The position numbers and the translations under genes are program-made. A model generated the notes under the pieces. It searched no databases and was not told the DNA's origin. It worked only from the letters and a program-made list of their open reading frames with translations. DNA of 64,000 bases from Thermothielavioides terrestris NRRL 8126. Lineage: Eukaryota > Ascomycota > Sordariomycetes > Sordariales > Chaetomiaceae. Shown in pieces: positions 29,695-50,039 of the stretch; the stretch's first letter is position 1, and each line of letters begins with the position of its first letter. Where the stretch lies: NCBI RefSeq assembly GCF_000226115.1, contig NC_016457.1, positions 3,844,001 through 3,908,000 on the forward strand, in the 5' to 3' direction.

Positions 29695-30640
29695 TCATGG
29701 CCTGGCCGCCTTCGAGTCGGCTCCCGCAGATTTGTCATCCCCCTTCTCCCTCCGATGTAGGATCTCGTCGATGATGCCGTGCTCCTTGGCCTCCTCGGCC
29801 GTCAGGTACTTGTCGCGCTCCATCATGTCGTTGATGGCCTTCATGTCGTACTTCTCGTAGCCGAACGACTTGTTGATGTGCCCCTGCACGATCTTGTTGA
29901 TCTGGTCCCGTACCCTCTGGATCTGGTTGGCGTAGATCAGTATGTCGGCCGCCTGCCCGCGGGTGCCGCCCAGCGGCTGGTGCACCATGACGGAGCTGTG
30001 CGGCAGCGCGTACCGCTTCCCGGGCTCGCCGCCGATCAGGAGGATGGCCGCCATCGACGCGGCGCCGCCGACACACACGGTCGAGACGGGCGACTTGATG
30101 TAGGTCATGGTGTCGTAGATGGCCAGCCCGGAGCTGATCTCGCCGCCTGGCGAGTTGATGTACATGGTGATGGGCTTGTCTGGGTTGTCGGACTCGAGCC
30201 ACAGCAGCTGGGATACTATCGACGCCGACACGATGTCGTCAATCGGGCCGTTAAGGCATACTATCCGTTCCTGCGCGGGTCAGAGCTGCGTTGGGGCGGG
30301 TTCGATCCGGCGTGCCGTGCACTAACCTGCAGCAGCTTGGAGAAGATGTCGGCTGTGGACGGCGGTAAGCGACAAGTTCGAAGCCCTGGCCTAGCGGCAG
30401 CTGAGACTCACATGTGCGCCAACCCCCCGCCTAGTCTGTCAGCAACGCGACACATCGAGAACGAGCAGGGACGGGCGAGGAACATACCGTGACCTCGGTG
30501 ATGTAGGGCATTGGGAGGTTGCCCATTGGCGGCATCAGCCCGGGAGAAGCGCTAAATCTGGAGAAGCGCCGGCATTGTGACCCGCCTATCCTTTGGAGAA
30601 GGCGAGAGGCTAATCGTGGGGCTAATCGTTGGGAATTCAT
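29695..30640 (-). CDS. clpP: Mitochondrial ATP-dependent Clp protease proteolytic subunit
   Basis: Serine peptidase barrel subunit of the mitochondrial ClpXP protease. Four exons: 30488-30640, 30412-30430, 30327-30352 and 29695-30270, giving 257 residues. Exons 2 and 3 are only 19 and 26 nt, and together restore the AGGWRTSDIFSKLLQ-ERIV stretch expected in ClpP. Introns are 56-59 nt with donors GTATGT, GTGAGT and GTTAGT. The catalytic triad is Ser138 (GGAASMAAI), His163 (SVMVHQPLGG) and Asp219 (MMERDKYL). Residues 1 to about 35 are Arg/Ser-rich mitochondrial targeting (MNSQRLAPRLASRLLQR). The C terminus has a short Lys/Asp/Ala-rich extension. Yeasts commonly lack ClpP, but many filamentous fungi keep it. 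Confidence 0.96.
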
Positions 30641-31399
30641 AGCGGCGGACGACGAGACAAAACGAGTCTCTCCTTCCTCTGCTGCGAGACAAGATGGGGG
30701 AGAACGAATGCGGGTCTTGAAGGCCGCAGTGGAACTCAGGTTGGCAGCCTGCGTTAGCTCCCGGGCTTGGCAGTGACAGGGATCCTGTCTCGACCAGCAT
30801 CAAACATCTTCGCAAAGTTCGCACCTCAACCATTTCATCGCAAGCTGGCCAAGAACTCGACCAGGCGGGCCAAGACTTCGCGACTTGCAACGTTGGAATG
30901 CCTAAGGATTAAACTGTGCAGTATTCAAGTGTCTGTCTCTTCGCGAATCTTGTGAGGTGTGTCAATCCACCTCGAGTCTTCATGGAGCCAAGCCCATGCG
31001 AGTCCGATTTTGGCGCCAGTACTCCGGAGTTAGCGACTGGGTCTTAACTTCACTGCTGTGGTTCATCTGCAGACGGTGTCGAGGCCCAGCTTTCTCTCAT
31101 TTCTCTCCCCTTTCCACTCATTAGTTTGCTCGATATCTCGACTCGAATCGCTTTTCAACTTCCCATATTTTCAGTTTGCTGTCTTGTTTTCGCCTTGTGA
31201 AGTGCTGCGGATTTGCTGTCGAGTTAGTTAGCCACAGTCTGGTTAGTTAAACAGGCGGTTTACTGGACTCGCTGGTCTGAGTGAATCTGTCAACCTGCTG
31301 GGCCCCTGTCCACTTCCTCTTCACTTCTCAAACTCGATGAGCGTATCCGTGTTCTGGCGACAATTGGCGCTCATTTACCCGGCCTGACCAACAGACACG
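30641..31399. promoter_or_regulatory. Divergent promoter region, clpP / 31400 gene
   Basis: About 760 bp between divergent starts. The right half is pyrimidine-rich, as in fungal promoters and 5' UTRs. No gene or named site is supported. Confidence 0.45.
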
Positions 31400-32858
31400 A
31401 TGCAGGCTGTGGGAAGGCGCTGCGGCAGGCCGTCACTAACTACCGCTTACCGCAGGCCATGGCGATTTGTTGTTGCTCAGAGTTTGCATGCCTGCAGCCA
31501 TCACCAAACGGACGCGGCAGCGAACACAAGCCACAAGACCACCGACACCAACACCGCAGCCGACGCCTCACAAAATCCTGTGGCGAACAACATATTCTTA
31601 AAAGAAGATGTTCCAATAGACGCCAAGAACAAGACAGTTACCACCGTGGTTGGCGAGCTGCCCATATCGCCGTTGATGGACCCGTCGTTCCACGAGGCAA
31701 GGGGCAAGTTCAGGAAGCGCAAGCCCACGGCACCGCAGTTTAAGCCGACCAAGTTTCAAAAGCAGTTAGCCCGCAACCCCTTCGGTAATGTCCCGCAACT
31801 AGGAGTCTACAATAGGTAGTTCTGGCGAGCGGTCGTTCTCTAACCTGCTCCCAGCCAAGGCCCTGGCGACACCGGTGCGGAGGTGTCCCATCACCAACAC
31901 GGTCCTACCCAGATTCTTACTCCAGCGCTTTCGTCTCGTGTCACACCCGGAGACGGGAAGACCGTGGTTCACGCCCGCTGATCTTTCCCCGAAGGGCCCG
32001 GCGACGGGCCAAGCTCCCGTGCCTGACGTCTCACCGGAGCGTGCGACTGCGCCTGGACCGGCCAAAGAACTGCCCCAAGAGACGCTCCGAGGACTCGAAC
32101 AGAAACAGGATGGTGCTTCTTCCGGGTCAGAGCCGGAAATCCCAGCACAGCTGCCCCAGCAGGATTTGCAAGCAGGAGCGAGTACTGCCGAGCAGGCCCC
32201 AGTGGCCCGAAGGCCCACAAAAACAGGACCCTCAGCATACGTCCTCTCGCGTCAAACGTTGTTTCGGGAGCTCCAGCACCGGAAATCGGTGTACTTCGGG
32301 GCTTTTCAGAAGCTCTTCCGCATGTCCGACCACGGGCGCTCGCATCTCACGGCGGCGCTGAACAGCGCCAACTGGCGCAGCGATATGGACGCCGTGCTGC
32401 TGGAGCTGATGCGCCGGCGCATCTCCGAGGGCCTGCTCCACTTCGCGAGGCTGGTGCTGGAGCAAGACCGCAAGTACATCGTCAAGTGCGAGCGCTGGGA
32501 CGACGCGAAGGCGCTCAAGCACAGGGGCTGTCTACTGTTTCTGGGCCCGCCGAAGGGAACCGCTGCGTCTCCGGACTCCGAGTCGAGCTCCCCCGAGTAT
32601 GTGCCGCCAAGGCTGTCGACGATGGACGTTGGGCCTGCCCGGTACGGGTCGATTATTGCGGTCCACAATCTGTGCGTGCTTTTGGGCGAGGAGCACGTTG
32701 CCCGGCTACGACAGGAGTCTAAGCTTTTCCGGGACGGATGGCTGTTCATGCTGGGCAGGCAGGCCACGGTCAACCTGCAAATGCTGTTGTGGAAACTGCA
32801 GGGCTACATGGCCTGGGATGAGCCGCAGGAGACAGCGTCTTCGGACGAGTCGACGTAG
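31400..32858 (+). CDS. Conserved fungal protein, probably mitochondrial
   Basis: Exons 31400-31784 and 31855-32858 give 462 residues. Intron 31785-31854 has donor GTAATG, branch CTAAC and acceptor CCCAG. Residues 1-30 (MQAVGRRCGRPSLTTAYRRPW) are Arg-rich without acids, a likely mitochondrial presequence. The conserved-looking parts are FRKRKPTAPQFKPTKFQKQLARNPF, then RRCPITNTVLPRFLLQRFRLVSHPETG across the splice, and a C-terminal helical domain (QTLFRELQHRKSVYFGAFQKL and GWLFMLGRQATVNLQMLLWKL). A Pro/Gln/Ser-rich linker separates them. A relation to the respiratory-growth (RRG8-like) or mitoribosome-associated proteins is possible but not shown. I do not assign a function. Confidence 0.85.
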
Positions 32859-33363
32859 AGGCCGTCGACGTTTTCAGCGCGACCCAAGCTGGCCGAGCCG
32901 CTGTCGATAAGACATCGAGCAGTACCGGGTCGCAGGTCGAGCCAGCCAACTCACTATGTGGAGTGAAAAAGGCTCCCGGATGCGACAGGCATCTGCGAGT
33001 CACTTCCGAGGCTGTAACTGACCAGCGAATACCTCTACTCCATCTCGGGATAACAGGCCCGACCGCGTCTCATCCGCCGCCACCTCACCTCACTTCCACA
33101 ACGATCGCTTCGATGCTTTGCCAAACCAACATGTCCGGCACATCGACTGCCTGCACAGCTTTGGCTCTGAACCTAAAGGCGGAGACAGTCGGCTGCGCAT
33201 GATGGAAGGCAGTCTGAGGCTGATACCCGGGGGAGTGTGCGAGACGGTTCATGGAACTGCTCAGGAGGCACATGAAGAGTGGGACTGTACATACATGTAT
33301 TATACACCGGTCATTCAGCTTATATACATGGGAAAGAGTGCTTGCACGCCATCAGCATCAACA
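32859..33363. other. 3' flank and left target region of the hAT element
   Basis: No supported gene. It runs up to the 8-bp target duplication at 33364-33371. Confidence 0.5.
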
Positions 33364-33371
33364 GGTCCGGG
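33364..33371. repeat. Left 8-bp target-site duplication (GGTCCGGG)
   Basis: Identical to 46256-46263 and directly outside the inverted termini. Eight base pairs is the diagnostic hAT duplication length. Confidence 0.93.
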
Positions 33372-33391
33372 CAAGGCTCCCAACAATTCAA
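33372..33391 (+). repeat. hAT left terminal inverted repeat
   Basis: CAAGGCTCCCAACAATTCAA, a perfect inverted match to the right end. Confidence 0.93.
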
Positions 33392-33706
33392 ATCCACCCA
33401 ATTCAATTCAATCCAATTCAATGCAATTCAAGGCAATTCGGCCCTGTTGGCAATCAATCCTGGGCCTGGATTTGACTTGTTTACTTACAAATATTTGCCA
33501 AGACCGCATATTGGTCAGTGCTTCGCAAGATACCTCCCAGTCCGCCTAGCCCAGCCTAGCCAGCCACCATAGCCACTACCAACCGCCCTGTTTTTTTCCA
33601 CTCTCTGGCCTTGGCATATAAACGGAGCCAGTTATAGAGTCGCATTGTATCGCTAGCTCTCTAACCGAGCCAACCGACTGCCCTAGCAAGTGCTATAGCT
33701 ACAGCT

Positions 33707-35760
33707 ATGCCTAAGACCTCTATAGGCCTAATAGATACGCTACGCGGCTGCCCAAACGTTGCTAAGCAGTTGGAAGCGTTGGCTGGCACTAAGGTCGAAG
33801 AACTGCCCTATAACTCTATCGTCGAATGGCCCAAGGTCGTACTACGTAGCAAGCAATATATCCTAAAAGACTAGCTAGCTAAGAAGAGGCTCTAGAAGTC
33901 GTAGATCGCTAGCTATAGGAGCTTCCTTGTCGAGGCTACTAATAGCAAGGTAGGAGAGGTATCCTAGTATTGCAAATACTATAATAAGCTCTTTAAGGCT
34001 ACTGTAATAAATGCTCCTTTAGCTTATCTTATTAACGAATATAACTGCTATAACAATACGAAGGAACCGCTAGCAAAGAGATTGAAATTGGTCTTAATAT
34101 TACAACGAGCTATAGCTAATGCCCTAGTCGTTAAGCTAATAGCTAATTCGATCAAGGCGTTGCTTATTACCTAGATCGTTTAAAACGACCTCTCTTTTAT
34201 AATTGTTAAAGATATATTTTTCTATTAGCTCCTTCGACTATTTAATTATAAGCTTCTTGAGTTTATTCTATTAAGTAATAACACTATATAGAACTAAGTA
34301 GATTAGCGGTATTAATAAGAGAAGAAGGTTGTTAAATAGATATTTATATCTATAAGGTTTATAGTACTAAGAGAAGAAAGCTATTAAATAGACATTTATA
34401 GGTATAAGATTTATTAAGTATCTTTTCTTTGATATATAGACCTTACTAAATTTATATATACTCCTCGTTGTTATAGTCTACTTTGTAGATAGTAAATTCG
34501 AGCTATAGACGAAGCTATTGTAGATAGTTTAGCTCTATAGCTTATACTTTGGCGATATATAAGCTATAGAGATTCTAAAGGTCTTCAACAACTTCGATCT
34601 AGCCTAGGATATTAGCTTCTTTTAGTATAACAATATCTCTTTGAACAATATATATATTACTATAATCCTCAACTATATTTAGCCTAAGTTCTTGCTTATA
34701 AGAAAGCAATAACGACTTCGTTGTCTAGGCTATATCGTTAACCTTATTATAAGAGCCTTCGTTGAAGCTTACTCTAAGGATTAGGAGGGCACTAGGCTAG
34801 TTTAGAAGCTTTACTATATCGTTTATTATATCTGCTATAGCCTACAATGCTATAATACCTTTGCTAAGGCAACGTAGTTCAAATAGGCTAAGGAGGATAC
34901 AATAGACGACTTTAATACGTTTCTAAACGAGCTAAAGGATATAGTTGGGCTATAGTTGGTACTAGACAACGATATAAGGTAGAACTTAGTCTTCCTAATG
35001 ATCTAACGTACTATATAACTATAGGACTCTATAGACCTCTATTGCCTATAGTCTATAGCTAAGAAGGATAGATTTCTATAAAATAGTATACTAATAAATT
35101 AAGATTGGCTAGCGTTGGCCGATATTAAAGAGGTATTAGAGCTATTTGTAGATATTACTAAGTCGTTTAAGGGCAATGAGCCTACTATTCCTACTATTGT
35201 TAGTATAATATACTTCCTACTTAACAAACTAAAGAAGAAGCTTGGCCTAGGCTAGATAGCTACTACATTAGAGATGCTACTACTGCCAATGCTATTACGT
35301 AGACTACAACGGCAAGCTAGGCGACTATAGTGGTTAGAAGACTATAAGCTCGATCTTCTAGCTTCCTAGCTATCTAATATATCCGTCTTATAAGCAACGA
35401 CTATTATAAGCAACGAACCGGCTTTAGAGGTATAATCCATTTAAAACAGCGTTTAAGCAGCGATTACGAAGCTCTAAGAATACATTAGCCTACTCAACGA
35501 CTCGCTAGCGTACTAGATTATAATAATCTTATATCCTAGGTATAAGATAAGGTAGATATAAAAGCACCTTCTAGAGGATAAGTGTAAAAGCTATTTTATA
35601 GCCTTTAAGCAATGTTTCTAGGAGTAATATAGCTATCTTCTAGTCGAACTAGAGCCTTTTATTAAATATATAGGGCGCCTAGAGAGCTAAGGAAGCGACT
35701 ACTTTTTTACGTCTCTTAACTACTACGAAGATGCTAGCTATTATAAAAATAAGGTCGATA
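33707..35760 (+). pseudogene. hAT transposase, 5' portion (RIP-degraded)
   Basis: Begins ATGCCTAAGACC. A degraded BED-type zinc-finger region lies at about 33890-34040, with the expected C-x2-C and His pair partly turned to Tyr (CKYY, LINEYN). The catalytic domain follows, with RLRCLGYIVNLIIRAF at about 34718-34765, matching the hAT block RLRCLGHxxNL. Next come the helical block ending LLNKLKKKL and the block LYPRYK, seen in functional relatives as LHPRYK. Stops are almost all TAG at positions where Trp or Gln is expected. The frame is cut at 35760 by the LTR retrotransposon and resumes at 44457. It cannot be functional. Confidence 0.88.
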
Positions 35761-35765
35761 GCTAC
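35761..35765. repeat. Left 5-bp target duplication of gypsy element (GCTAC)
   Basis: GCTAC immediately before the 5' LTR, repeated at 44452-44456 directly after the 3' LTR. Confidence 0.93.
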
Positions 35766-36015
35766 TGATATAGGGCAGGAGGAACAGGGGGGTTATATGA
35801 CCTATATGTCTATGTACGTAGATTAGATAAGGGTGCCCTACGCCCCGCGTTGCAGACTTTGCAACGCTAGGCCTATTTGGGCAGGCGGCGTACGGACATA
35901 TGTTCTGCCCTGTAGATATATATTTCTTAGCGTACTACCGCCTAGATCTTTGATCTACCACCATCATCAATCTATATCTTGTTATTCTACGTATCTACGG
36001 CACTTCTCTACATCA
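35766..36015 (+). repeat. 5' LTR of gypsy element
   Basis: 250 bp, begins TGATATAGGGCAGGAGG, ends CTACATCA. It pairs with 44202-44451. The first ~80 bp are identical in both copies. Confidence 0.95.
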
Positions 36016-36573
36016 AGTAGTAACTACGACTTCAAGATCATTGACCTAATCATTCTTTTATCGTCATCAATCGACTAGCCTACGTAGCGGCTTTGCCAAT
36101 AGCAATAGCCGGTTGAACCACCGCTTTCTTCGTATAGCGATTTAACGAGGTCGATAGCGTTGGAAGTATCCTACCTTCGAACGACGGTTTAGTCGAAGAG
36201 CCTCAATCGTATAGTGGTTCTATCGATAGCGATTACGATCTTTAGCTATCGATCGATTAGTCTACATAGTGGCGATCGCCGACAATATCGTTGACAGCAA
36301 TAGCTGATCAACCACCTAGTTCTTCTTGTATAATAGCGATGGCCGATAGCGATTAGAACACCCTCTTCCTTAATCTAACAAACTCTTTAGTAGGCCCTTG
36401 TCAACTATCCTTGATCGACCTTAATTAGCCGATTAAACTAGTTAATAATACGCCTACTTGACCTAGCTTCTACAGTTTAAACTAAGGTGATACTTAAGAT
36501 AGCCGATTATAGCTATAACACTCGTTCTTACGCCTCCTCGCTAGCTAAGCAACTCTCTAAATACGACGCTACT

Positions 36574-39500
36574 ATGTCTAAGAAGATCGAGGAGACGTTA
36601 TATACCCTACGTAAAGGCTTTATTCCTTCGGCTCTAGAGCTACCTACTCCCTAAGAGCGTACTTATCGTAATATCGACATTGGCTAAGATGATTACAATA
36701 ATATATAACTGGGCGATAAACTATCTTTCGAAGACGCCTAGAGCGACCTTAAGGAAGCTAAAGATATTCTAAACCTCCTAGAGTATATTAAGGTCAGTAC
36801 TAATTGGCCTTTCGTCAAGTAGCTTAGCTAGACTATCGGTAAATATACTACTTTACTCGAAGATACTATTGCTATAGTCAATCAATTTTAGGCTAATATC
36901 GTCGAGATTTGACCTATACTCAATAGGTTGATAAGCTTTTACAACCGCTTTAAGAACTTACTAGAGCTTATAAATTAACTCTAAATAGCTGTCACCTAGA
37001 CTAGAGAAATTGCCTAATAAGTTTAATACTAAGATAAGCTCTTTATTTAGTATATATATAATATAGACGATCGGCTAAGTAAGATCGATAACGCTATTGC
37101 CTAGCTAACTGTTAAGAACCGATTGGCTAATCCTATATTGGCTAAGGAGCCTCTACTAGCTGCTCCTATATTAACTATAGAGCTATAGCTATATACCCCT
37201 TCGATTTAGGGCCGTTACTTAGTAGCAACGGCAGCCTCTCTAATAAAGAGCCTCCGTACGTCTCCCCTAGTCTAACCTATATAACCTCATATATAGACTG
37301 CCTTTCCTATTCCCCTAGAGGGCGTCGACATCGGTATAGCTTATAACTTAGCTATAGGCACGCTACTAGTATATTAAGCCTATATTATACGCCCCAACAA
37401 TTTGCGCTTAAGCAGCTAGTGCTAGGCCATATCGCCTTATAGCAACCTAGACTAGGCTAAGTCGCCTTAGGGCGACCCTCGCCAAGGCGAACCGTCTTAG
37501 GATAGCCAACGCTAGGCTATATCGCTTCTTAGGCGGCCCCCTAGCACTAGTGGCTATAATCTAAACGACCTAAACGACCTAGACAACAACGATAGTAGGC
37601 GCCGTCTAAGCAATCGCCTAAATAACCGTCTACCTTTCCTACTTCCTCTAAACCGTAGTTACTAAGAGTATTTCTACGATACTACTAGTACTAGAGATAG
37701 CCGATCTATCTCTACCTTTAAGATTAAACGTAATGACATTGGTACTTTTAATTCTAGTTATAAGGACCTTAACGATATAGGTATCGTTATAGATAGTAAG
37801 AACGTGATTTTTACCGATATCTATTACTTTATCCAACGTTTATTAACCTTTCTAGAGGACTCCGACACTAGCTACGACGTAGCCTAGTAAATCCTATACC
37901 TCCTGCCTATAGTTCTCGCTAGCTAAGCCCTCTTCTAGTAGAATAGCGAAGTCACTGTTTAAAAGCGTTTATAGTAGCGCTAAGCTAGCCTTTATACAAT
38001 CTTTGATCAATTGGTAGAGCGTTTTACAATAGATCGCTAAGTGGCTATCGACAAGTTTAACCGAGGATAGTTAACTATTAGATATATTGCGAAGAACCTT
38101 GACGCTCTAATGAACTTCTTCTAGAAGAAGTTGCATTTTATATATATAGTAGGCTAGATCAATTATAATAATTTAAACTAATATAACGTTGTAGGTACTA
38201 TTTATAACCGTCTAGACTCGACTATTATATCTTTTCTTCTATAGCCAAAGATGAAGTATACTCTAGTATACTATATATATAAGATTATAGAAGTATAGCC
38301 TATATTTATTACTATAGTTTACAATAAGTTCCTAGAGTTGAAGAAGTCTTTGTTTACTAGCAAGTCTACTACTTTCGATAATATTAAGTTTGATAAGAAG
38401 TACTCTAGATATATTGATCGCTATAGCGATAACCGTTAGAACTACGACTATAACTACAACGACGATCGCTATAACCGAGATCGCGATTAAAACGGCAAAT
38501 ACTATCTAGATAACTATAATTCTAAGTATAACGATCGAGCCTAAGACTAAGCGCACCTTATCGACGACGCTAATTCAAAGATATTATCCGACTTAGAAGC
38601 CAATAACGAAGCTGAGGCCGATTACAAGTCATCCGTTTCCAATAGTACCAACAAGTCGGATATCGCCTATATAGCTTACGATTCGAAGCTAACCTATTAC
38701 AAATGCTATTAGACCTTTAATACAGTTCCCGCCACCAACGTATATATCCGTACCTACAGTAAGGCAATTGTCCCTAAGAACGTTTGTCACTATCGAGCTA
38801 ATTAGGCCAACCTAGGCCATCGAACTTATAGGTACTGCAATACCTTGTTCGATTCCTAGAACCAGCTCTTCAAGTACCTAAAAACCTATTTAGCAGCCAC
38901 TTCCAGCTCTATCAAGTACTTAGAGCAAGCAACCACTGTCACTAAGGATATTTTAGAGGACGATATCCTATTTGCCAAAGGCTCTGGCCCTACTGTAGAT
39001 TTCGCTATCAACCTAGAAGTATAAGAGGCCTCTAAAACGGCTAACCTAAGTATCGACAGCCTATATAGCGCCTATACCTACTTGTATATCAAGGCCTACG
39101 CTTAGCCTAGCTACAAAGACCTAGAAGTTTACCTCGATCTAGGTACTAGCTATTCGATTATCGACAAGACCTTCCTAAATACCTTTAAACACTCGACTAA
39201 ACACTACAATAGCCAGATTTATAGCATTAGAAAGACCTCGCCTACCTAGTAGGCAACCTTCGTTATTTACTTACTAGGTATTACCATTATTGGCCTAGTA
39301 CTCCTTAAGTTCATTTGGTCTACCTAGGTAGTAGATAAACTGCCTACCAACCTTCTATTAGGAGCTAACTTCCTAGATCTATATTAGGCCTCTATCGATT
39401 ATAGTATAAAGATCGCTAGCCTATATGGTATCCTAGGAGGATTCAATATACTATTCGCTATATATACCTAGATGTTCTCCTATATATACAAGGTTAAGAC

Positions 39501-42500
39501 TATATATACCGTTACCTTATAGCCTAAGCAGGAAGCGTACATCGTTATAGAATATAAACCTCTTCCGATAGACCAGTCTATAATGTTCAACGCTCGCTAT
39601 CCTACTATACTAAACACTGTTGTCAATGCTAAGACCTCTAAGGTAGTAGCTCTTAAGAACTCGACCAAAGGAGTTCTCACTATTTCAAAGCGCTACCCTA
39701 TTGGCTATATTGAAGATACTAATAATAGCGGTTACCTCGCCTATTTGTAGGAGACAGCTTTCATAGTATTGACTATAGCAACCGCCTTGATAGCGATATC
39801 TACTGCTACGAACCCTAGTTCTATTTAAACCGCTATTCAGTACGCTAGCCCTAGTGTGTCAACTGCATTCGATATATATAGCCTAGTTTATCCTATTCTA
39901 GGAGACTCCGCCCAACTCGCAAGCGATATTTCATCTTAAACTACAATATCTCCTCGAGGTTCGCTAGAGTTATCGACGTCTTATAGCGATATAGTATATT
40001 AGCTAACTACTTTATCCGAATCTAGACCTATATTATACTAATTAGTATACCTATTGGGCTAGTCTGCCTAGCCTATATTATACCAATCGATCTAGGATCC
40101 TAGTACTAATGATTATACTAATAGGTATAATCCTAACCTTGAGTTGCCTCTTAATGACTATAAGCCGGTAGTGCTAGAGAAGTATTCGACTCTAGGCCTT
40201 AAGATACCTACCAACTTACTAGAGATACTCACTTCAAAGGGTATATATATATATACCTAAGATCGTAAGCTAGTATAGCGATTTGTTAATATCGTTAAGC
40301 GTTATCCTCGCCTATAGAAGGATAAGGGCCAAGTTGTCTAGGACAAAGAGGATATAATACAAGTGCCTCTCGTAGAAGGCTAGCAATATTAGAAGATCTA
40401 CGTCTGCTAATACCCTTTGAGTGCTTACGATCGCAAAGTTCTTAACGCTACTTTCGACGAACTATACTAGTAAAAGCGCTTCGAATAGGCTATAAAGGCT
40501 ACTCTTTTCACGTATCTAGTATTTATTGTTTAGTATACCTCTTACAGTAAGATCAAGGGCTATATAGTTATCGATTTATATACTTTTAACAAGGTTATAG
40601 TACTTGACAACTACCCTCTACCTTTACAATTAGACATTATTATATACTTACGAAGTAAGAAGTTTATTACTATAATCGATGCTATATCCTTCTTCTACCA
40701 ATTCGATATATATCCTCTATATCGCGACCACTTCACCTTAATCAGCCCTTATAGATTGGAATAGCCGAAAGTATACCTAATAAGCTACTACAATACCCTC
40801 GTATATATCTAGCGTTTTATAGATTAGTTACTTCGCCCTTATACCTCTTTCGCCTATATATTCATCGACGACATCATTATCTTTAGCGACACTATAGATA
40901 AGTATACTAAGTATTTAAAAACCATTTTTAGCTTGTTTAAGAAGAAGAATATCTCTATCGCGCTAGCTAAGTTGTATATTACATATCCTAGTATAGAGCT
41001 ACTTAGTTTCTATATCGATAGATTTGGACTAACTAACACTAAGCACTATATCGCCGCCTTTAGGAACCTCGCCTTTCTAAACAACCTAAAGGCCCTAGAG
41101 TAGTATATCGACGCCTTGGAATTTCTATACCATCTAATCCTATACTACGTATAGCTTATTAAGCCTCTCTAGAACTATAAGATAGTGCTACTTACAAAAG
41201 GCTAAGTAACTAGCTAAGTGGAAAACAGCAACCCTAGTAAGCACGCCGCCTATTACGTTAAGACTTTCTTTGAACCGACGTCTACTAAGAAGGCCTCTTT
41301 CGAAGCTATCTAGGATGCTATCTATAAGTTAGACCCTACTATTTTAGTTCACTTCGACCTTGATAAGACCCTCTTTTTATAGATCGATAGATACCTAGAG
41401 CGTAGCTTTGGCGTTATAGCGTTCTACCTTGCCGATAGTTATAAATAGTGAATTAGGGTAATGGCCTACCTAGACATAGGGACCCAGTTTTTCTATTTAT
41501 TTCAGTACGTTACATTCGTTGCTAGGGGGTCTAGCCCTCTAATCACATATATTTAAGTGGGCTAAGCCTATCTTCTTCGTCATCAAGGAAGACATTAAGC
41601 AGTTGTCAATACACGTTCGTTGACACTACGTTGGTGGTTCTCCTTCTTCTAGGAAGGCTGTTGAGCCTCTCCTTTCGTTGTTCTACCTCTGTCTAGACGA
41701 TAGGCATTCGAGCTATTGAGCTCTGACCATATTCTTATTGTCTTTTATCTTCCTGCTATATCCCACTAGACGTATCCGAGCTACGTGTCTTCCTCTTGGG
41801 AGACATCCTTCCCACTACTCGATACGTACTATCTTCATCTGTCTAGAGAGACACTGCATTCCTTTGAGAGCTATCTCGCGCACCTGGTCCTAGGTGTGGT
41901 GGGGTAGGTTGGTGTAGAGGTTTTGCACCATTTCAATAGAAGCCTAGGATTGTTATCTCGTCAACCTAGGTTCAGCTCGTTATATTCCTAAGCCGGTACC
42001 TTATAAAGGAGGAACTCTAGTATAGGCCTTTTGAATAGGAAGTTGCCTACCTTGTCTAGGTAGTTAAGAAGCTATATACTACGATCTATTCGTTATATAA
42101 GCCTATCGTCGTCCTTATAGATTATACTTCTATAAAAAGCATCGTTAACTAGACTATTTTAGATATATCGTCCATTGAGCGAGCCAATTATAGGCTTATC
42201 AACGCCTTTATTTACCTCTCGTAGTACAACTTAGAGATCTATTACCTTCTAGGTCGTCTAAACCTAGTACCTAATGTACTTAGCTATTTAAAAGCTCTAT
42301 AGGATGATCTAAACTACGAGAATAGCTCTAGTAACAACGATATAGTCCTTGACAATATCTAGTTCACCTTTATAGAAGCGAAACTAGATAATGACCTTTA
42401 AACTCGCTTTATAGCTATATACTTTTATAACACTAAGTATATCGCTATTATCAAAGATCTTATCGTTAAATTGGCCATTAAAGGCAATAGCAAGGTTTTC

Positions 42501-44100
42501 TCTTAGCCTAGCCTCCTATTTATCTTTATAGATAGCCTTCTCTACAATATTTAACTTAACAAATTGCGTTTACTCTATATACTTTATAATATAATTTAGA
42601 CTATCTTAGAAGCTACCTATAATAAGAAACACTACTTTAGTACTAAGTAGATATTATACGACTTATAAGGTATATTGATAGCTTATAAAACCTACAACGT
42701 TAAGAAGTATATTAAACTATACCTAAAGTACTAAGTCAACGTAATAGATCGTCGCTTTAAATTAGGCAACTATTAACCGATTCGACTATCCGATACCTTG
42801 CTAATACGTATTATCGCTATCGATTTTATTCTAGGCCTACCGAAGGTCCTAGCTACTAGTTCGCCCTAGTAGCTCCTAAACTATAACTACTTCGATAGCT
42901 TACTTATAGTATCTTATAAGTTATTAAAGTATACCCTCTTTATTCTTAGCAATTCTAGCTATTTAGCTTAAGAATAGAGGTATATTCTAATTTGCTAATT
43001 GCTTCTAAGCGACTAGGGCGTACCTATTATAATTATCTCTAACTACGATCGTAAGTTTACTTCCAACCTTTAGCAAGGCGTTTAGAAGGCTCTAGGTACT
43101 AAATTACTAATAACAATATCCTACTACCTATAAGTGGATAGCCTTTTAGAGTATAAGAACTAAATAATAGAAATTACGATCTACTTCTATATATTCGAGT
43201 ACTCTAAAGGCAATTGGTTAGATATTATTATACCTCTATAATAGTACCTTAATAACGCTTATATTAAAGTCGTTAAATCCTTGCTTTATAAGCAGCTCTT
43301 TAGCTTTAAGCTTCTTAGACCTTTAGAAGCTTTTATTAACTAGGCTACTACTAAGCTAGCTGCTATTCTAGCCCTATAAGATACTCTATATTAGAATGCT
43401 CAATTGAGTATAGACTTCGTTATAGTATACGCTAAACGCTATTACAATAGTAAATATTGTAATATTAAGTTTAATATAGGCGATAAGGTTTATTTACGTC
43501 TATACTATAGTTACTATCTCCTAGGCAACCCATCTTAGAAGTATTTACAATAGTGTACTAGACCTTTTCTAATTAAGCGCTACGTTAGGCGCCTAGTATA
43601 CGAACTAGATCTCCTAGCTAATATAGGTATTTACCTAGTTATTTCTATTGCTTACCTTTGCCTAGCTCCTTAGGAAGAGGATCCCTTTAGCTATAATACG
43701 CTATCTCCTAGTCTAATCGTCGACTTTTAATCGGACTACTCCTCTAATAACAATGAATTGGACGATAAATATAAGGTTAATATAATCTTTGACTATAAAG
43801 TTATATACAAAGGCTTTAAATACTTGATCAAATGGACTAGCTACGGCTAAGAAGAGAGCGTTTAAAAAACCGTATACAAGCTATATTATATATAGCGTCT
43901 GATCAACGAATACTAGGCTTGTAAAGGCGATTATCTAGACCACCTAGTCTCTCGAGAAGAGCCTCCTATACTTGATCAGGTACCTTAACTGGCCTATAAG
44001 CGTAGTTGGCCTCGTAAGAACCCTATTCCCACTAATAACGATAAGATGTAGAAGAAGCTAGTTGATTGCTATCTAGATTAATCCGGTACTACACTTCTAG
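36574..44100 (+). pseudogene. Degraded gag-pol of the gypsy element
   Basis: Gag-like frame from ATG at 36574. The aspartic protease active site is near 39136-39147, reading DLGTS where D-S/T-G is expected. The reverse transcriptase catalytic loop FIDDI is at 40861-40875, with the upstream IDLYTFNKV and DNYPLPLQ blocks. RNase H spans about 41340-42300 and is interrupted by a solo LTR. The integrase core at about 42800-43200 includes IDFILGLPK. The chromodomain at about 43800-43930 reads KYLIKWTSYG. Trp and Gln codons have turned to TAG throughout. No part is expressible. Confidence 0.88.
41449..41935. mobile_element. Solo LTR nested in the gypsy RNase H region
   Basis: 487 bp, TG...CA, flanked by ATAG (41445-41448 and 41936-41939; AATAG if the end is set one base earlier). 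Composition changes sharply: CpA and TpG are frequent inside and scarce outside. Left of it the pol frame reads LADSYK-TAG, and right of it the frame continues KPRIVISST then VQLVIFLSR, which matches an uninterrupted RNase H. So the insertion lies within one codon-phase-consistent site. Orientation and family are unknown. Confidence 0.75.
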
Positions 44101-44201
44101 CCGTACGTTATAGTATTCGATTGAAGGGTATTTGACGATATAGAGGATCTAGATAGGTAAGGCAATAAGGGCATTGCCGTTTTTTTCTATAAGCTTGGAC
44201 T

Positions 44202-44451
44202 TGATATAGGGCAGGAGGAACAGGGGGGTTATATGACCTATATGTCTATGTACGTAGATTAGATAAGGGTGCCCTACGCCCTACGTTGTAGACTTTGCAA
44301 CGCTAGGCCTATTCGGGTAGGCGGCGTACGGATATATGTTCTGCCCTGCAGACATATATTTCTTGGCGTACTACTGCCTAGATCTTCGATCTACCACCAT
44401 CATCAATCTACATCTTGTTATTCTACGCATCTACGGCACTTCTCCGCATCA
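44202..44451 (+). repeat. 3' LTR of gypsy element
   Basis: 250 bp, begins TGATATAGGGCAGGAGG, ends CCGCATCA. Partner of 35766-36015. Confidence 0.95.
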
Positions 44452-44456
44452 GCTAC

Positions 44457-44722
44457 TTTGCTAAGGCGCCTAGGTATATAGATAAGCTACTAGAATAGTA
44501 GGTAGCGTATACTAAGCAATTCCTACGGCTCTCTAAGATAGTATTCGATTACCTTTTAATCTTAGCAATGTCTTCTAAGTATAAGCAACTGTTTAGCTAT
44601 GCCAAGCACTATATAAGCTACCAACGATATTTGCTTTATATAAATTTAATCAATATACTACAATGTCTAAAGAATTGGGTATAAAATAAGGAGTTCTAAA
44701 GCGTAGAAATTTATTGTCGACA
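44457..44722 (+). pseudogene. hAT transposase, 3' portion with dimerisation domain
   Basis: Continues the transposase after the gypsy insertion. It holds the hAT C-terminal dimerisation block: DYLLILAMSSKYKQLFSYAK corresponds to the conserved DxLSIPAMSSExERxFSxA pattern, followed by LQCLKNWV. Cys and His positions again read Tyr. It is degraded by the same process as the 5' part. Confidence 0.88.
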
Positions 44723-44745
44723 GTGTTGATGTCTAGGCTATATAT

Positions 44746-44897
44746 GGGAGGTCTGGGTAGGGCGATAGCGATCTTAGCTATATGTGGGAGGTCTAGGCAG
44801 GGCGATAGCGATCTTGGCTATGTATAGGAGGTCTATGGAGGGCGATGGCGATCTTGGCTATGTGCGGGAGGTCTACGTAGGGTGTAGGCGATCTGGG
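44746..44897. repeat. 40-bp minisatellite, about four units
   Basis: Four successive units of GGGAGGTCTAGGCAGGGCGA followed by TAGCGATCTTGGCTATGTAT, diverging mainly by transitions. They lie just after the hAT transposase, in the right arm of the element. Confidence 0.88.
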
Positions 44898-45058
44898 ATT
44901 ATATAAGCAATTGCTTAGTTAGAAAAAAATAAAACTGGCCTCTCTCAATTTTATTGTATTTTTAAGCGATTTAGCTATTGCGAGTGCCATTGAGCTAGAG
45001 TGCTAGAGAGCCAGAGAGCTAGAGAGCTAGGTAGGGTATGGAAAAAGGAGGTATGGTA

Positions 45059-46068
45059 CCTTAGCGGGGTAACCTGCTAAATTGTAAGCCAAGAGCATGC
45101 CTTACCTGGGTGTAAGCCTGGCTCCGTTTCTATGGCATAGAATCAGGATAAGCCTGATCCTGGGCATAAGCCTGACGGTCCCTGACGACCCTGACAACTT
45201 TTGGCCCTGTAGTGGGCCCTGTGGGTGCCCTGGACGGATGCCTAATAGCTTGTATGGACCACTAACCGGATACGCTGGAATTGGTGGAATGCGCATTGGA
45301 TATGCACCTATTGCGAAGCTAAATACAGTGCATCCTCCGCCGAACTTTCTGCATTTTTTCCAACTGCCCATGCCAAGCCTTGAACCTGTGTCCTAACCTC
45401 CATAGTGGAAGCAGTGGAAGTGCAGTGGAAGCTGTGGAAGTTGGGTGTGGTGGAAGATCTGGATTGTGGTGGAAGATCCGGTTGTGTGGTGGAAGCTGTG
45501 GAAGTGTGGTAGAAGATCCGGCTGTGTGGTGGAAGCTGTGGAAGTGTGGTGGAAGATCCGGATTGTGGTGGAAGATCCGGCTATGTGGTGGAAGCTGTGG
45601 AAGTGTGGTGGAAGATCCGGATTGTGGTGGAAGATCCGGCTGTGTGGTGGAAGCTGTGGAAGTGTGGTGGAAGATCCGGATTGTGGTGGAAGATGCGGAA
45701 GTGTGGTGGAAGATCGAAGATGCGGATGGAAGAGTGGAAGATGCCTCTTCTCGAGTGCACTTTCTATATTCGGTATACTATTTACAAAGATGGAAGTTGC
45801 AACCTGTTGGAAGTGCCGTTGTGATGATTGGAATGGAGAGGTTGTGGTGTTGATACCTGTAAGACCTTCTGAAGCTTCTGAAGAACGTGTTGTGGACATG
45901 GAAAATTTTTGCAATGTATCTTCCACCTAAATTTGTATGTGTGTGACATCCGTGGCTGCAAGTGTTGTCAGGGACCGTCAGGCTTATGCTCAGCGTCAGG
46001 GTTAGAAGCCTGTGCCAGGCTTAGGACCCTGTGCCAGGCTTACAATTTGCTACAGTTTCCCGCTAAGG
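45059..46068. mobile_element. ~1-kb inverted-repeat element (non-autonomous) in the hAT right arm
   Basis: Ends CCTTAGCGGG...GGGG/AAAC...AATTGTAAGCC are inverted copies of each other over about 32 bp, flanked by TA (45057-45058 and 46069-46070; the context GTAC makes GTAC an alternative). Further in, GCATAAGCCTGACGGTCCCT and several AAGCCTG(G) motifs recur in inverted order over ~130 bp on each side. There is no transposase, and the core is a 20-bp minisatellite. TA flanks would suit a Tc1/mariner-type MITE; hAT subterminal repeats are the alternative. Confidence 0.7.
45447..45717. repeat. ~20-bp minisatellite with 59-60 bp higher-order period
   Basis: About 13 units based on GTGGTGGAAGATCCGG(A/C)T(G)T and GTGGTGGAAGCTGTGGAAGT. 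They alternate in a three-unit order, giving a 59-60 bp higher-order repeat. Long open frames across it (Trp/Lys/Gly/Ser-rich) are a by-product. Confidence 0.92.
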
Positions 46069-46235
46069 TACGGAACAGGAAGGTGGGGTATAGAAAAAGT
46101 GGGGGGGGTCTGTCAGGGTTAGGGATATATATGGCGATTGACGAAACTTGACAACGAATTGATCAAATTCAATCAATTCAATCGCCACCATAATCCAGGC
46201 AATTCAATTCAATTCGAGGCCCAGATTTGACTTGA

Positions 46236-46255
46236 TTGAATTGTTGGGAGCCTTG
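46236..46255 (-). repeat. hAT right terminal inverted repeat
   Basis: Exact reverse complement of 33372-33391. Confidence 0.93.
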
Positions 46256-46263
46256 GGTCCGGG
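46256..46263. repeat. Right 8-bp target-site duplication (GGTCCGGG)
   Basis: Identical to 33364-33371. Confidence 0.93.
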
Positions 46264-46664
46264 AACCGTTTCTGCGCTGCCATGACAGCGTAAAACGCTC
46301 GCTCGCGGCCCGACATGTCACAACGGAGCTGCCAAAAGCCTAGGCAAATGAGAAGTGAGTGAAAAACAAACAACACAGGGAGTGGCCGAAATACGCCCGC
46401 TTTGGCAGCTGGGGTGAACATGCAGTTTAGTCGGGTGTGACGGTGCTGAGAAAGGTTGTCAACACATAGTTAGGGTTAGGGTTAACGTGATGAGCTGATG
46501 CAGAACGCGCCGATTGGGCAACTTTAATTGACGGTGTGGTGGGAAGCGCGTCGCGACGCGTCTCCCACAGCCCGTGAGTGATCCGCCCGTTTTCCATTCA
46601 CATCCATGCGTCTCCAGCAACAGCCAGGCCACTCCTTTGGATAACCAACTCACGACCAGGGACC
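46264..46664 (+). promoter_or_regulatory. PRI2 promoter with telomere-type repeat
   Basis: The 400 bp between the hAT element and the primase start. TTAGGGTTAGGGTTAA lies at about 46470-46484, roughly 180 bp before the ATG. Such teloboxes are bound by Tbf1/TRF-like Myb factors in other fungi; binding here is inference. Confidence 0.45.
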
Positions 46665-48413
46665 ATGAATCGCATCGATGCCAAACGGCGAAATGTCCTC
46701 GACCACCGCAAGAAGCAGTTTGCGGACCCGTCGTACAAGGAGACGCACTATCCGCACCGCCTGAACTTTTACTCGACGCCGCCAACAGCAGACATCACGC
46801 TCGAACAGTTTGAACAATGGGCCATCGATAGACTACGGGGTGCGTAAGAATGGATAATCACAAGCTCAGAAAGACCTACGGTTTCTTGTAATATGCTAAT
46901 AGCAGCTCATCTCCGCAGTCCTCGCCGAGCTCGAGGCGTGCTCCTTCCGCAACCGCACGCCGGCCGAGACGGCCGCGCACATGAAGCCGCTGCTGGACAA
47001 ATACCTGCCGCTCGACGCCAGCAGCTCGGGCAACTCCAAGCTGCACGCGCAGCGCCAGAAGGACCACTACAGCCACTTCATCCTGCGCCTGGCCTTCGCG
47101 TCGACCGAGGACCTGCGCCGCCGCTTCGCCCGCGTCGAGACCATGCTGTTCCGCCTGCGCTTCCAGACCGACGACTCGCGCGAGCGCGCCGCCTTCGTGC
47201 GCACCCTCAACCTCGACTGGGAGCCCGTGCCAGAAGAGGAGAAGCGCGCGCTCGCGCCGCAGCTGGCGACCACCGTCGGCTTCGGGTCCGGCAAGCGGGC
47301 GCAGCAGGTGCTGGATGAGGATTGGTGCAAGGTCGACTGGACCCGCGTGCCGGACCTAGTGAGGGACAGGAAGGTGTTCCTCAAGGGGGGGAAGGCCTAC
47401 GTCCCGGGGAGGGAGCAGCAGAGCATGGTATTGAATACGTTTACGTCGCGATTAGAGCGGGCGTTGGAGGTGAGCGCGCCACAATGCAGGAAACGACAGG
47501 AATGTAAGTGGCCTTCGCTAACAAGAGTTTTTCCCCCGGCAGCTCACAGCGCGCGCGCTCCCGCGGCTGGACGAGGACGACCGGCTCACGCCCATCCTCA
47601 ACCACCTCTCCAAGAACTTCATCGCGCCCGACTCGAGCTACAACGGCAGCAGCGCGGCGATCGAGGGCGCCGAGATCACGGCGCGCAACATCGACAACCT
47701 GTCGCAGCACTTCCCGATGTGCATGGCGCACCTGCACCGCTCGCTGCGGCGCGACGCGCACCTCAAGCACTTCGGCCGGCTGCAGTACACGCTCTTCCTC
47801 AAGGGCATCGGGCTGAACCTGGAGGAGTGCCTCGTCTTCTGGCGGTCGAGCTTCAGCAAGATCACCGACGACACGTTCAACAAGGAGTACCGCTACAACG
47901 TGCGGCACGCGTACGGCGACGTGGGCGGCGACGCGAACCGCCGCAGCGGCGGCTACAGCCCGTACAGCTGCCAGAAGATCCTCACGGAGCACGCCCCCGG
48001 CCCCGGCGACGCCCACGGCTGCCCGTACCGCCACTTCAGCATGGAGAACCTGGCCACGCTGCTCCGCGCGTCCGGCGTCACCGACCCCAAGGTGCTGCAG
48101 GGCGTCATGGAGGACAAGGAGAGCCAGAAGTATCACATGGCGTGCAACCGGTAAAATTCATCCCTCCTCCCCTCCACCACGCCGGGCACCCCGTGTTCCC
48201 TCCCTCCGTCCTCCGATAGAAAGCTAACGACCGAGACACAGCGTCTTCGAGCACCTCCACAAGGCCGAACTCAAGCGCGCCAAAGACGACGGCGTCATGA
48301 CGGCCGCGCAGCTCGAGACCATCGTGCACCCGAACGAGTACTTCAAGCGCAGCTACCTGCTCAAGCACATGGGCAGGCAGCAGCAGCAGGGCGATGTAAA
48401 GATGGAAGGGTGA
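46665..48413 (+). CDS. PRI2: DNA primase large subunit (p58)
   Basis: Regulatory Fe-S subunit of the DNA polymerase alpha-primase complex in the nucleus; it takes part in RNA primer initiation and hand-off. Exons 46665-46839, 46919-47469, 47543-48150 and 48242-48413 give 501 residues. Donors are GTGCGT, GTGAGC and GTAAAA. The N-terminal start MNRIDAKRRNVLDHRKKQF fits the family. The four [4Fe-4S] cysteines are 302 (HFPMCMAH), 385 (YSCQK), 402 (HGCPYRHF) and 443 (HMACNR), with spacing 83/17/41 against 80/17/40 in human p58. The FNKEYRYNVRHAYG loop is intact. The C terminus has a short Gln run. The gene begins only 410 bp from the end of the hAT transposon. Confidence 0.97.
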
Positions 48414-50039
48414 CAGCCGCCGCGGGTTACGTGTTGTGAGGATGGCTGGCAATTCACCGTGGACAAGGTGAGGCGCGTCGGCAGGGCCGGGTGGATAGGT
48501 GGGGTGTGGGAGGGTCAGCTGCGTCGGCGTCTGACACCCTTCAACTCCCCCTAAGGGGCTGGTGAGAGAAGCGACGCAGGATTGGAGGACGGGGGCAGGA
48601 AGCGCCCTAAATACGGCGCGATATACCATACTGCCTGCCCACCTGTTCAGCGTGATGGTCGTCTGCTTTGGGTGAGCATGTGAATGCGAGGGATGACACA
48701 TTTGTACGCAGTATCTCTCCTGAGGAGGGAGGTGGGGGAAGGGGGAAGGGCAGGCGTTGTTTGTGGTTAATTTACGAGTTGCGAGTTCTTGTCTCAGAGA
48801 CGCTCCACACTCATCATGAACTTGGGTGTCGGGCGCAAGTGCGAGTGCACTGCGAAACATGAGGTTTCTTTTTCCGACGAGGTGATTTTCTCCAGCTTAC
48901 TAGGTCCTCGGTGCGACGGTCCCTCCAAGATCTTCACGAGCCCCAAGCACGAGGCAGTCTGGTAGTCAGTATTTCCCCTCCCTCCTTTTCGTGTATTTTT
49001 GGATAGGCTATTTATACTTATCTCAGCCCTCAGACCCCTTTCATTGCGTTCTCTATTTTCCCAGCCTACGGCCGGGAGAGGTCCGTGCCCAGGCCTGCCA
49101 AGACGTAATCCTATACTAGTTTGTATATAACGCTGTCCGCTAGACCCTTTTAAGAACTTGGCCTACTTTTTGTATAGAATGCCTTTGAAAGAGGTCTGAG
49201 AGCAAAATCTAGGATTCGGCCTGGAGTGGTCACGGTTTTGTATGGGAGACCAAAAAATCCAACTTGATCACTCGTAAATATCTCAACTACCATAAATCGT
49301 ATTATAAAGGTAAATACTGTCTGAAGATCGCCATTGATAGGCGATTCTAATGAGCCTACTCTTATATATATAGATACAAATTTTTTCCTGAACGGTTGCT
49401 TTTAACGAAAAGTTTTGGGGTAGTCACGGCATTTTTTCCGATCGATGACCCCCCCTCAATTTCTATAACATTGCGTTAAAACCCATCAAATTTGACGGCA
49501 ACGTTGTGCTCGTCAAGGTGATCCTTGGAGCCTGTTTTTCCGTCCTCTGATCTAACTGTATTGCCGAACGGTAGCTCAGAGGGTGTAGAAAATGGCCTGT
49601 AACGAGCTTGATCGTGGGCATCCTGGGCTTGTGGGCATCCTCCTGGCTAACGTGGGTATCTTCCTGGGTTCGTGGGTATCCTGGCTAATGTGGGCATCTT
49701 CCTAGGTTCGCGAGCATCTTCCTGGGTTCGTGGGCATCTTCCTGGGTTCGCGGGCATCTTCCTGGGTTCGTGGGCATCTTCCTAGGTTCGTGGGTATTCT
49801 GCCTGACGTGGCTATCCTAGGCTTGTGGCCATCCTGGGCTTGTGGCCATCCTCCTAGCCAACGTAGGCATCCTAGGCACTGTTAGAAAGTGTATAATCTA
49901 GTGATTTAGGAGCAACTTACAGATCGCTAAAATACCTAGTTTTGATGGTGTTACCCAGTTTTGATGGTGTTGTAGCTGTCGGCGCAATTCGCCCTGCTCC
50001 TTGTGTGCCCTGACTGGGCCAAATCACGGGTAGACGTTA
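48414..50039. other. Gene-poor region with a 20-bp minisatellite
   Basis: 3' flank of PRI2, then AT-richer sequence (about 49000-49560) without frames, then the minisatellite at 49612-49890. No gene is supported. Confidence 0.55.
49612..49890. repeat. 20-bp minisatellite
   Basis: Imperfect tandem units of TCTTCCTGGGTTCGTGGGCA, most regular at 49690-49790 and decaying into CATCCTGGGCTTGTGG-type variants at both ends. Several units show CCTGG changed to CCTAG. Confidence 0.9.

Follow-up and report, generated by a model that had tools for sequence, protein, structure and literature searches.

Intact ends on a hAT transposon damaged by repeat-induced point mutation in Thermothielavioides terrestris, and the weakening of mutation toward repeat edges

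We analysed a 64-kb stretch of the Thermothielavioides terrestris NRRL 8126 genome (C1:3844001-3908000, hereafter the window) and found a dead hAT transposon hosting two younger insertions (Table 1). Its transposase gene has been destroyed by repeat-induced point mutation (RIP), and its ends are intact. The genome searched for relatives comprises 36,912,256 bases in 6 contigs. The element is 12,884 bp long (33372-46255); the interval given in an initial annotation, 33364-46263, counts the target-site duplications in. That annotation described a perfect 20-bp inverted repeat with its halves 12.9 kb apart and a perfect 8-bp duplication. Our analysis confirmed these boundaries and the nesting: the terminal inverted repeats (TIRs) match at 20 of 20 positions, and each is bordered on its outer side by GGTCCGGG. 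Assuming uniform base composition, chance would give about 0.002 perfect 20-bp inverted pairs per 64 kb, and about 3e-8 once a matching 8-bp flank is also required. Taken by itself, the 8-bp sequence is not unusual (it occurs 3 times in the window vs 2.47 expected from shuffles), so its weight comes from its placement at both TIR ends and not from rarity. The left flank of the element (412 bp) is single copy in its own genome.

Table 1 Features of the hAT element and its nested insertions, in window coordinates.
Feature	Position	Strand	Remarks
Left target-site duplication GGTCCGGG	33364-33371	.	Same letters as 46256-46263
Left 20-bp TIR	33372-33391	+	20/20 complementary to 46236-46255
hAT 5' end	33372-33700	+	CAATTCAAT-type subterminal repeats; first ~150 bp largely RIP-spared
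Left part, RIP-damaged hAT transposase region	33708-35765	+	Stops throughout frames; RIP-depleted; core in nine copies
Nested LTR retrotransposon, 8,686 bp	35766-44451	+	LTRs 35766-36015 and 44202-44451
hAT right part	44452-45058	+	Remains of dimerisation domain; four 40-bp tandem repeats
Nested TA-flanked element, 1,010 bp	45059-46068	.	TA on both sides
hAT 3' subterminal region	46069-46235	+	At least 32 genome matches of 46072-46263
Right 20-bp TIR	46236-46255	-	Perfect partner of left TIR
Right target-site duplication GGTCCGGG	46256-46263	.	Directly outside right TIR

Subtracting both insertions and their duplications leaves 3,181 bp, in agreement with the roughly 3.2 kb first proposed for the insertion-free element and with uninterrupted relatives of 3,039-3,357 bp. 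The larger insertion has the direct long terminal repeats (LTRs), short duplication and reverse transcriptase of an LTR retrotransposon. The duplication is GCTAC (35761-35765 and 44452-44456), the 250-bp LTRs differ by 15 transitions and 0 transversions, and the reverse transcriptase piece lies at 40828-41100 (RVT_1, E value 5.8e-6; 26.6 bits, under the 29.6 cut-off, in a scan of one short open frame). Its insertion site is unoccupied in the three uninterrupted relatives, two of which have GCTAC once and the third ACTAC. The smaller insertion ends in a 10-bp perfect outer inverted repeat followed by a partial one. With its TA duplication and terminal inverted repeats, it is a candidate non-autonomous element of the Tc1/mariner type. 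Its first 344 bp match six genome places at 87-100% (two of them at 99%), and alignment to one short hAT copy shows the site unoccupied. It also contains a minisatellite of ~20-bp units (45406-45732). The two insertions account for the length of the focal copy, and we therefore rejected a giant cargo transposon as the cause of the wide TIR spacing.

The assignment to hAT, made in the initial annotation, was supported by domain and structure. A damaged hAT dimerisation domain (PF05699) was detected at 44454-44710, just below threshold (E value 9e-4; 19.4 bits, cut-off 21.4). Genome-wide, the same domain gave 5 matches above the cut-off, every one with stops and all located, by coordinates, within elements bearing the same termini. 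The perfect 8-bp target-site duplication is a hAT superfamily trait. Short TIRs whose second base is A and fifth base is G are typical of hATs, and the focal TIR begins CAAGG. Autonomous hATs are about 2.5-5 kb long, a range that includes both the 3,181 bp computed here and the uninterrupted relatives. Ac-like hATs prefer nTnnnnAn target duplications. Among 19 perfect duplications of the family, 11 have T at position 2 and 9 have A at position 7, a bias in the direction of that preference. On the other side of the balance, the rest of the hAT core, including the part left of the LTR insertion, had no Pfam match that would point to the RNase H-like catalytic core and acidic triad of hAT transposases, and none of 7,996 scored candidates was a protein relative of the damaged core at E 1e-3. 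The element itself is ordinary.

A genome search for the same 20-bp termini, as the initial annotation had proposed, found 49 sites with up to 3 mismatches, compared with 3 for a reversed control pattern. The left 337 bp had at least 39 genome matches and the right 192 bp at least 32. Matches to the 5' end range from 100 down to 67% identity, and subfamilies differ at their ends. We fetched 53 stretches around the end matches and then paired the ends. This gave 92 candidate TIR pairs. In 24 of them the 8-bp flanks match, 19 perfectly and 5 with a mismatch at one position; 12 TIR ends (up to 3 mismatches) had no partner. The same termini, joined to other flanking sequence, carry duplications of their own, the opposite of the pattern named at the outset as telling against the boundaries. 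The transposase core (33870-35765) had 14 genome matches, which by place represent nine copies, in a search that scored the best candidates only. Both termini are present in all nine. The 8-bp duplication is perfect in eight; in the ninth, C6:3253830-3308596, it has one mismatch. Of the nine, three uninterrupted copies (3,357, 3,351 and 3,039 bp) have perfect duplications elsewhere in the genome, and the other six, among them the focal copy, extend over 12.5-54.8 kb. The anatomy of these many copies shows that the family moved by cut and paste, leaving 8-bp duplications. That the 20-bp repeat is instead an inversion or recombination scar, as its 12.9-kb spacing with other elements in between might suggest, is refuted by the paralogous copies, with both ends present in all nine and shared by three uninterrupted ones, and we give it virtually no credence.

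The family also includes short copies. Thirteen were examined (289-1,232 bp), and their duplications are perfect in 9, have one mismatch in 3 and are unclear in 1. In a 694-bp copy with perfect TIRs, the 5' side enters the transposase region and then joins the 3' end; this copy is an internal deletion, since transposase sequence runs straight into the 3' end. Two further family TIR pairs with perfect 8-bp duplications are 32 and 46 kb apart (C1:6474650-6507101 and C2:7321065-7367255). Neither had a match to the transposase core, and both are strongly RIP-depleted inside, in the 2.6-3.6 kb read per end. They are probably short copies filled by nested insertions.

As initially described, the transposase is heavily mutated. 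We used the ratio (CA+TG)/(AC+GT) as a RIP index and counted CA/TG-to-TA changes as RIP-type. The frames of the focal transposase are full of stops, and RIP depletion was found in 9/9 core copies. For eight long copies, the index measured 700-1,200 bp inward of the 3' end is 0.47-0.60, in a pool that takes in one apparently short-copy end (C3:979487). It is 1.57 across the 13 short copies, and 1.26 to the left and 1.13 to the right of the element in the window. The corresponding pooled 5' index table takes in three short-type ends, which the gradient counts given below omit. The CpA/TpG-to-TpA transitions that mark RIP are concentrated in repeats, and in all nine core copies found RIP has killed the transposase gene. 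Compared with its nearest relative, the focal core has 171 transitions and 3 transversions, so much of the RIP postdates the separation of these two copies. Long open frames with DNA methylase domains at C2:1001400-1002272, C3:2558736-2559893 and C1:8964302-8965195 are candidates for the enzymes of RIP and DNA methylation, among which RIP relies on a RID or DIM-2 type methyltransferase active in the sexual cycle. The hAT core is RIP-depleted right up to the LTR junction. The TA-flanked element is not, although it is about 1 kb long, and it either arrived after the last RIP or falls under the RIP length threshold here.

Conversion of CA/TG sites was profiled inward from the hAT ends with the short copies as a yardstick. 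At the 5' ends of nine long copies, the converted fractions per successive 50 bp are 0.04, 0.12, 0.16, 0.41, 0.43, 0.54 and 0.30 (the last 3/10), with other C-to-T changes at 0.12 or below. The corresponding 3' fractions, from eight long copies, are 0.10, 0.05, 0.17, 0.39 and 0.37, with other C-to-T changes reaching 0.21 (3/14). By the same measure, the short copies show 0-0.12 at their 5' ends. Two single references extended the profile to 500 and 640 bp, where conversion past 150 bp is 0.38-0.77 and other C-to-T changes reach 0.19. When each long copy was compared with the nearest of six short copies, 25/233 sites were converted at 1-150 bp and 123/247 at 151-330 bp. The outer zone is the less converted in 9/9 copies (Fisher 1.6e-21, with sites treated as independent), and the focal copy alone has 1/30 and 13/31 sites converted in these zones. 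A lightly RIPed short copy was also informative. An 846-bp and an 832-bp copy are 94.7% identical, and 25 of their 28 RIP-type differences lie in the 846-bp copy, so short copies are not wholly exempt from RIP. In that copy, conversion is 0/23 in the first 150 bp and 20/78 in the middle.

The LTRs provided an independent test that needs no yardstick, because an element's two LTRs begin as identical copies. From a search that scored 40 LTRs of 116 candidates, we took the 11 pairs at 7.3-8.4 kb spacing, the focal pair included. The 5' LTRs carry 72 RIP-type changes at mean position 171 and the 3' LTRs 101 at mean position 103. The first 50 bp hold 3 of the 5' LTR changes and 37 of the 3' LTR changes; for the final 50 bp the corresponding numbers are 24 and 10. 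The inner side is mutated and the outer side spared in 10/11 pairs (p 1.4e-9), and only 3 of 2,048 within-pair label swaps matched the observed difference. Binned per 50 bp by distance from the outer edge of the element that carries them, the changes number 12, 16, 50, 33 and 62. Transversions within pairs number 0-2. The 5-base flanks, as cut, match in 3/11 pairs; for the others, the duplication may have been lost, the boundary may have been cut off by a base, or the pair may not be one element. In this genome, and in two element families, RIP thus weakens toward the repeat edge.

Four observations pull the other way. Conversion at the 3' ends of short copies is 0-0.25, with 6/24 in one bin. 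The last 150 bp of the 846-bp copy are converted at 5/27 sites and are not clearly spared. One LTR pair of the 11 (L116/L117) runs in the opposite direction. Finally, an alignment of repeat X0 of Stagonospora nodorum is described in the cited passages as having slightly more RIP toward its ends (PMC2621366).

We nevertheless consider it likely that this is a full-length hAT killed by RIP whose ends were spared because RIP is weak at repeat edges. The hAT inserted by cut and paste, leaving the 8-bp duplication, and host RIP then destroyed the transposase, with much of the damage probably falling after insertion, as the 171 transitions against 3 transversions suggest. Within about 100-150 bp of the repeat edge RIP is weak, and the TIRs and subterminal sequence would survive as a by-product. 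The gradient may arise if homology recognition needs homology flanking a site on both sides. The LTR retrotransposon would have inserted later and been RIPed too, and the unRIPed TA-flanked element would have come last, giving a presumed order of hAT, RIP, LTR element, RIP, TA element. Short, internally deleted members mostly escaped RIP. With RIP weak across the outer ~150 bp of repeats in this genome, LTRs included, intact TIRs on a dead hAT are expected, and selection for mobility is not needed to explain them.

Such selection could nonetheless have acted: RIP-killed copies may have been mobilised later in trans, with only those keeping working ends able to move. Some trans-mobilisation of family members did happen, as shown by the perfect duplications of 9 of the 13 short, non-autonomous copies. 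However, the spared zone of ~150 bp extends far beyond the 20-bp TIR, and LTR edges, which belong to an unrelated element class, behave alike. The excess of transitions over transversions also places much of the RIP after the copies separated. We therefore regard selection for transposability as an unlikely source of the pattern. Alternatively, the ends may diverge more than the core between subfamilies and so go unseen as repeats by RIP, and the 5' ends do diverge between subfamilies, as noted above. Yet the copy at C4:4546467 is, over the stretch compared, only 2 transversions from its nearest short copy, itself lightly RIPed, and still shows conversion of 1/25 vs 15/27. Moreover, divergence cannot yield opposite gradients in two LTRs that start identical. 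We doubt this explanation as well, and both are weaker accounts than the sparing of repeat edges.

The initial annotation also suggested that the element could have been, or could still be, mobilised by a related transposase. Past movement is shown: the focal copy has its own duplication, and its relatives have other flanks with theirs. That the element could still be mobilised is unsupported. All nine core copies are RIP-depleted, all five dimerisation-domain matches contain stops, and an intact hAT transposase was not found by the core search or the PF05699 genome search, which scored the best candidates and would miss a hAT far from both queries. As no intact transposase was found, the family is probably now immobile in this strain.

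We are evenly divided on whether the pattern reflects a general rule, in which RIP needs two-sided homology and every dispersed repeat has structurally sheltered margins of ~100-150 bp, leaving transposon ends usable. If true, the RIP defence would itself generate non-autonomous, end-competent elements and favour compact end sequences. It would also explain why transposon ends outlast their dead mobilising genes in RIP fungi. RIP's gauge of repeat extent could be read from existing genomes by using the gradient in hATs and paired LTRs. A practical warning is that intact termini alone are not evidence of recent or possible mobility.

A DNA primase large subunit gene lies to the right of the hAT element at 46903-48151 (PF04104 in two pieces, E values 6e-11 and 3.7e-62), and its open frame begins at a distance of about 640 bp. 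Next to the element, base composition looks normal, and the flanks thus show no visible spread of RIP. The 40-bp tandem repeats in the hAT 3' part occupy 44732-44891, and a ~20-bp direct repeat array lies to the right of the element at 49614-49871. No RNA families were found at 30000-50000 and no tRNAs in the window by a tRNA program set to the bacterial code.

A close structural counterpart is ToxhAT of wheat-pathogenic Dothideomycetes (PMC6737239), which is likewise hAT-like, TIR-bounded, ~14 kb long and host to a nested DNA transposon, with further insertions in some species that include a RIPed LTR retrotransposon. ToxhAT differs in having 74-bp TIRs, no identifiable target-site duplications according to the cited passages, and a virulence gene as cargo, whereas the focal element, with no cargo that we could see, combines 20-bp TIRs with an 8-bp duplication. 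The hAT families of Fusarium poae (for example Tfo1, RLT1 and Nymeria; PMC4994206) resemble it in size (~2.5-4.2 kb) and TIR length (19-30 bp where given). They are listed there as mostly intact in the supernumerary genome, unlike the RIP-damaged T. terrestris core copies, and elements under the RIP length threshold are treated apart. Among the cited parts of eight papers (PMC4858203, PMC7296669, PMC4994206, PMC6737239, PMC12543289, PMC10787394, PMC4188875 and PMC2621366), only PMC2621366 addresses RIP near repeat ends, and we do not claim that edge sparing is unpublished. Precedent is partial and mixed, and the sparing of repeat edges deserves a look by specialists. The RIPCAL profile of ribosomal DNA repeats in S. 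nodorum is consistent with it, and short repeats there lack CpA RIP (PMC2621366); those passages contain no per-site or paired-LTR comparison of the kind made here. Full copies of the crapaud LTR retrotransposon of Podospora are RIPed and solo or fragment LTRs mostly are not, which is ascribed to size (PMC10787394); outer and inner LTR sides are not compared in the cited passages, unlike in our T. terrestris pairs. In Neurospora, RIP recognition is stated to integrate sequence information across several hundred base pairs (PMC4858203), and the weakening of RIP at repeat edges is consistent with both this statement and the RIPCAL ribosomal DNA profile.

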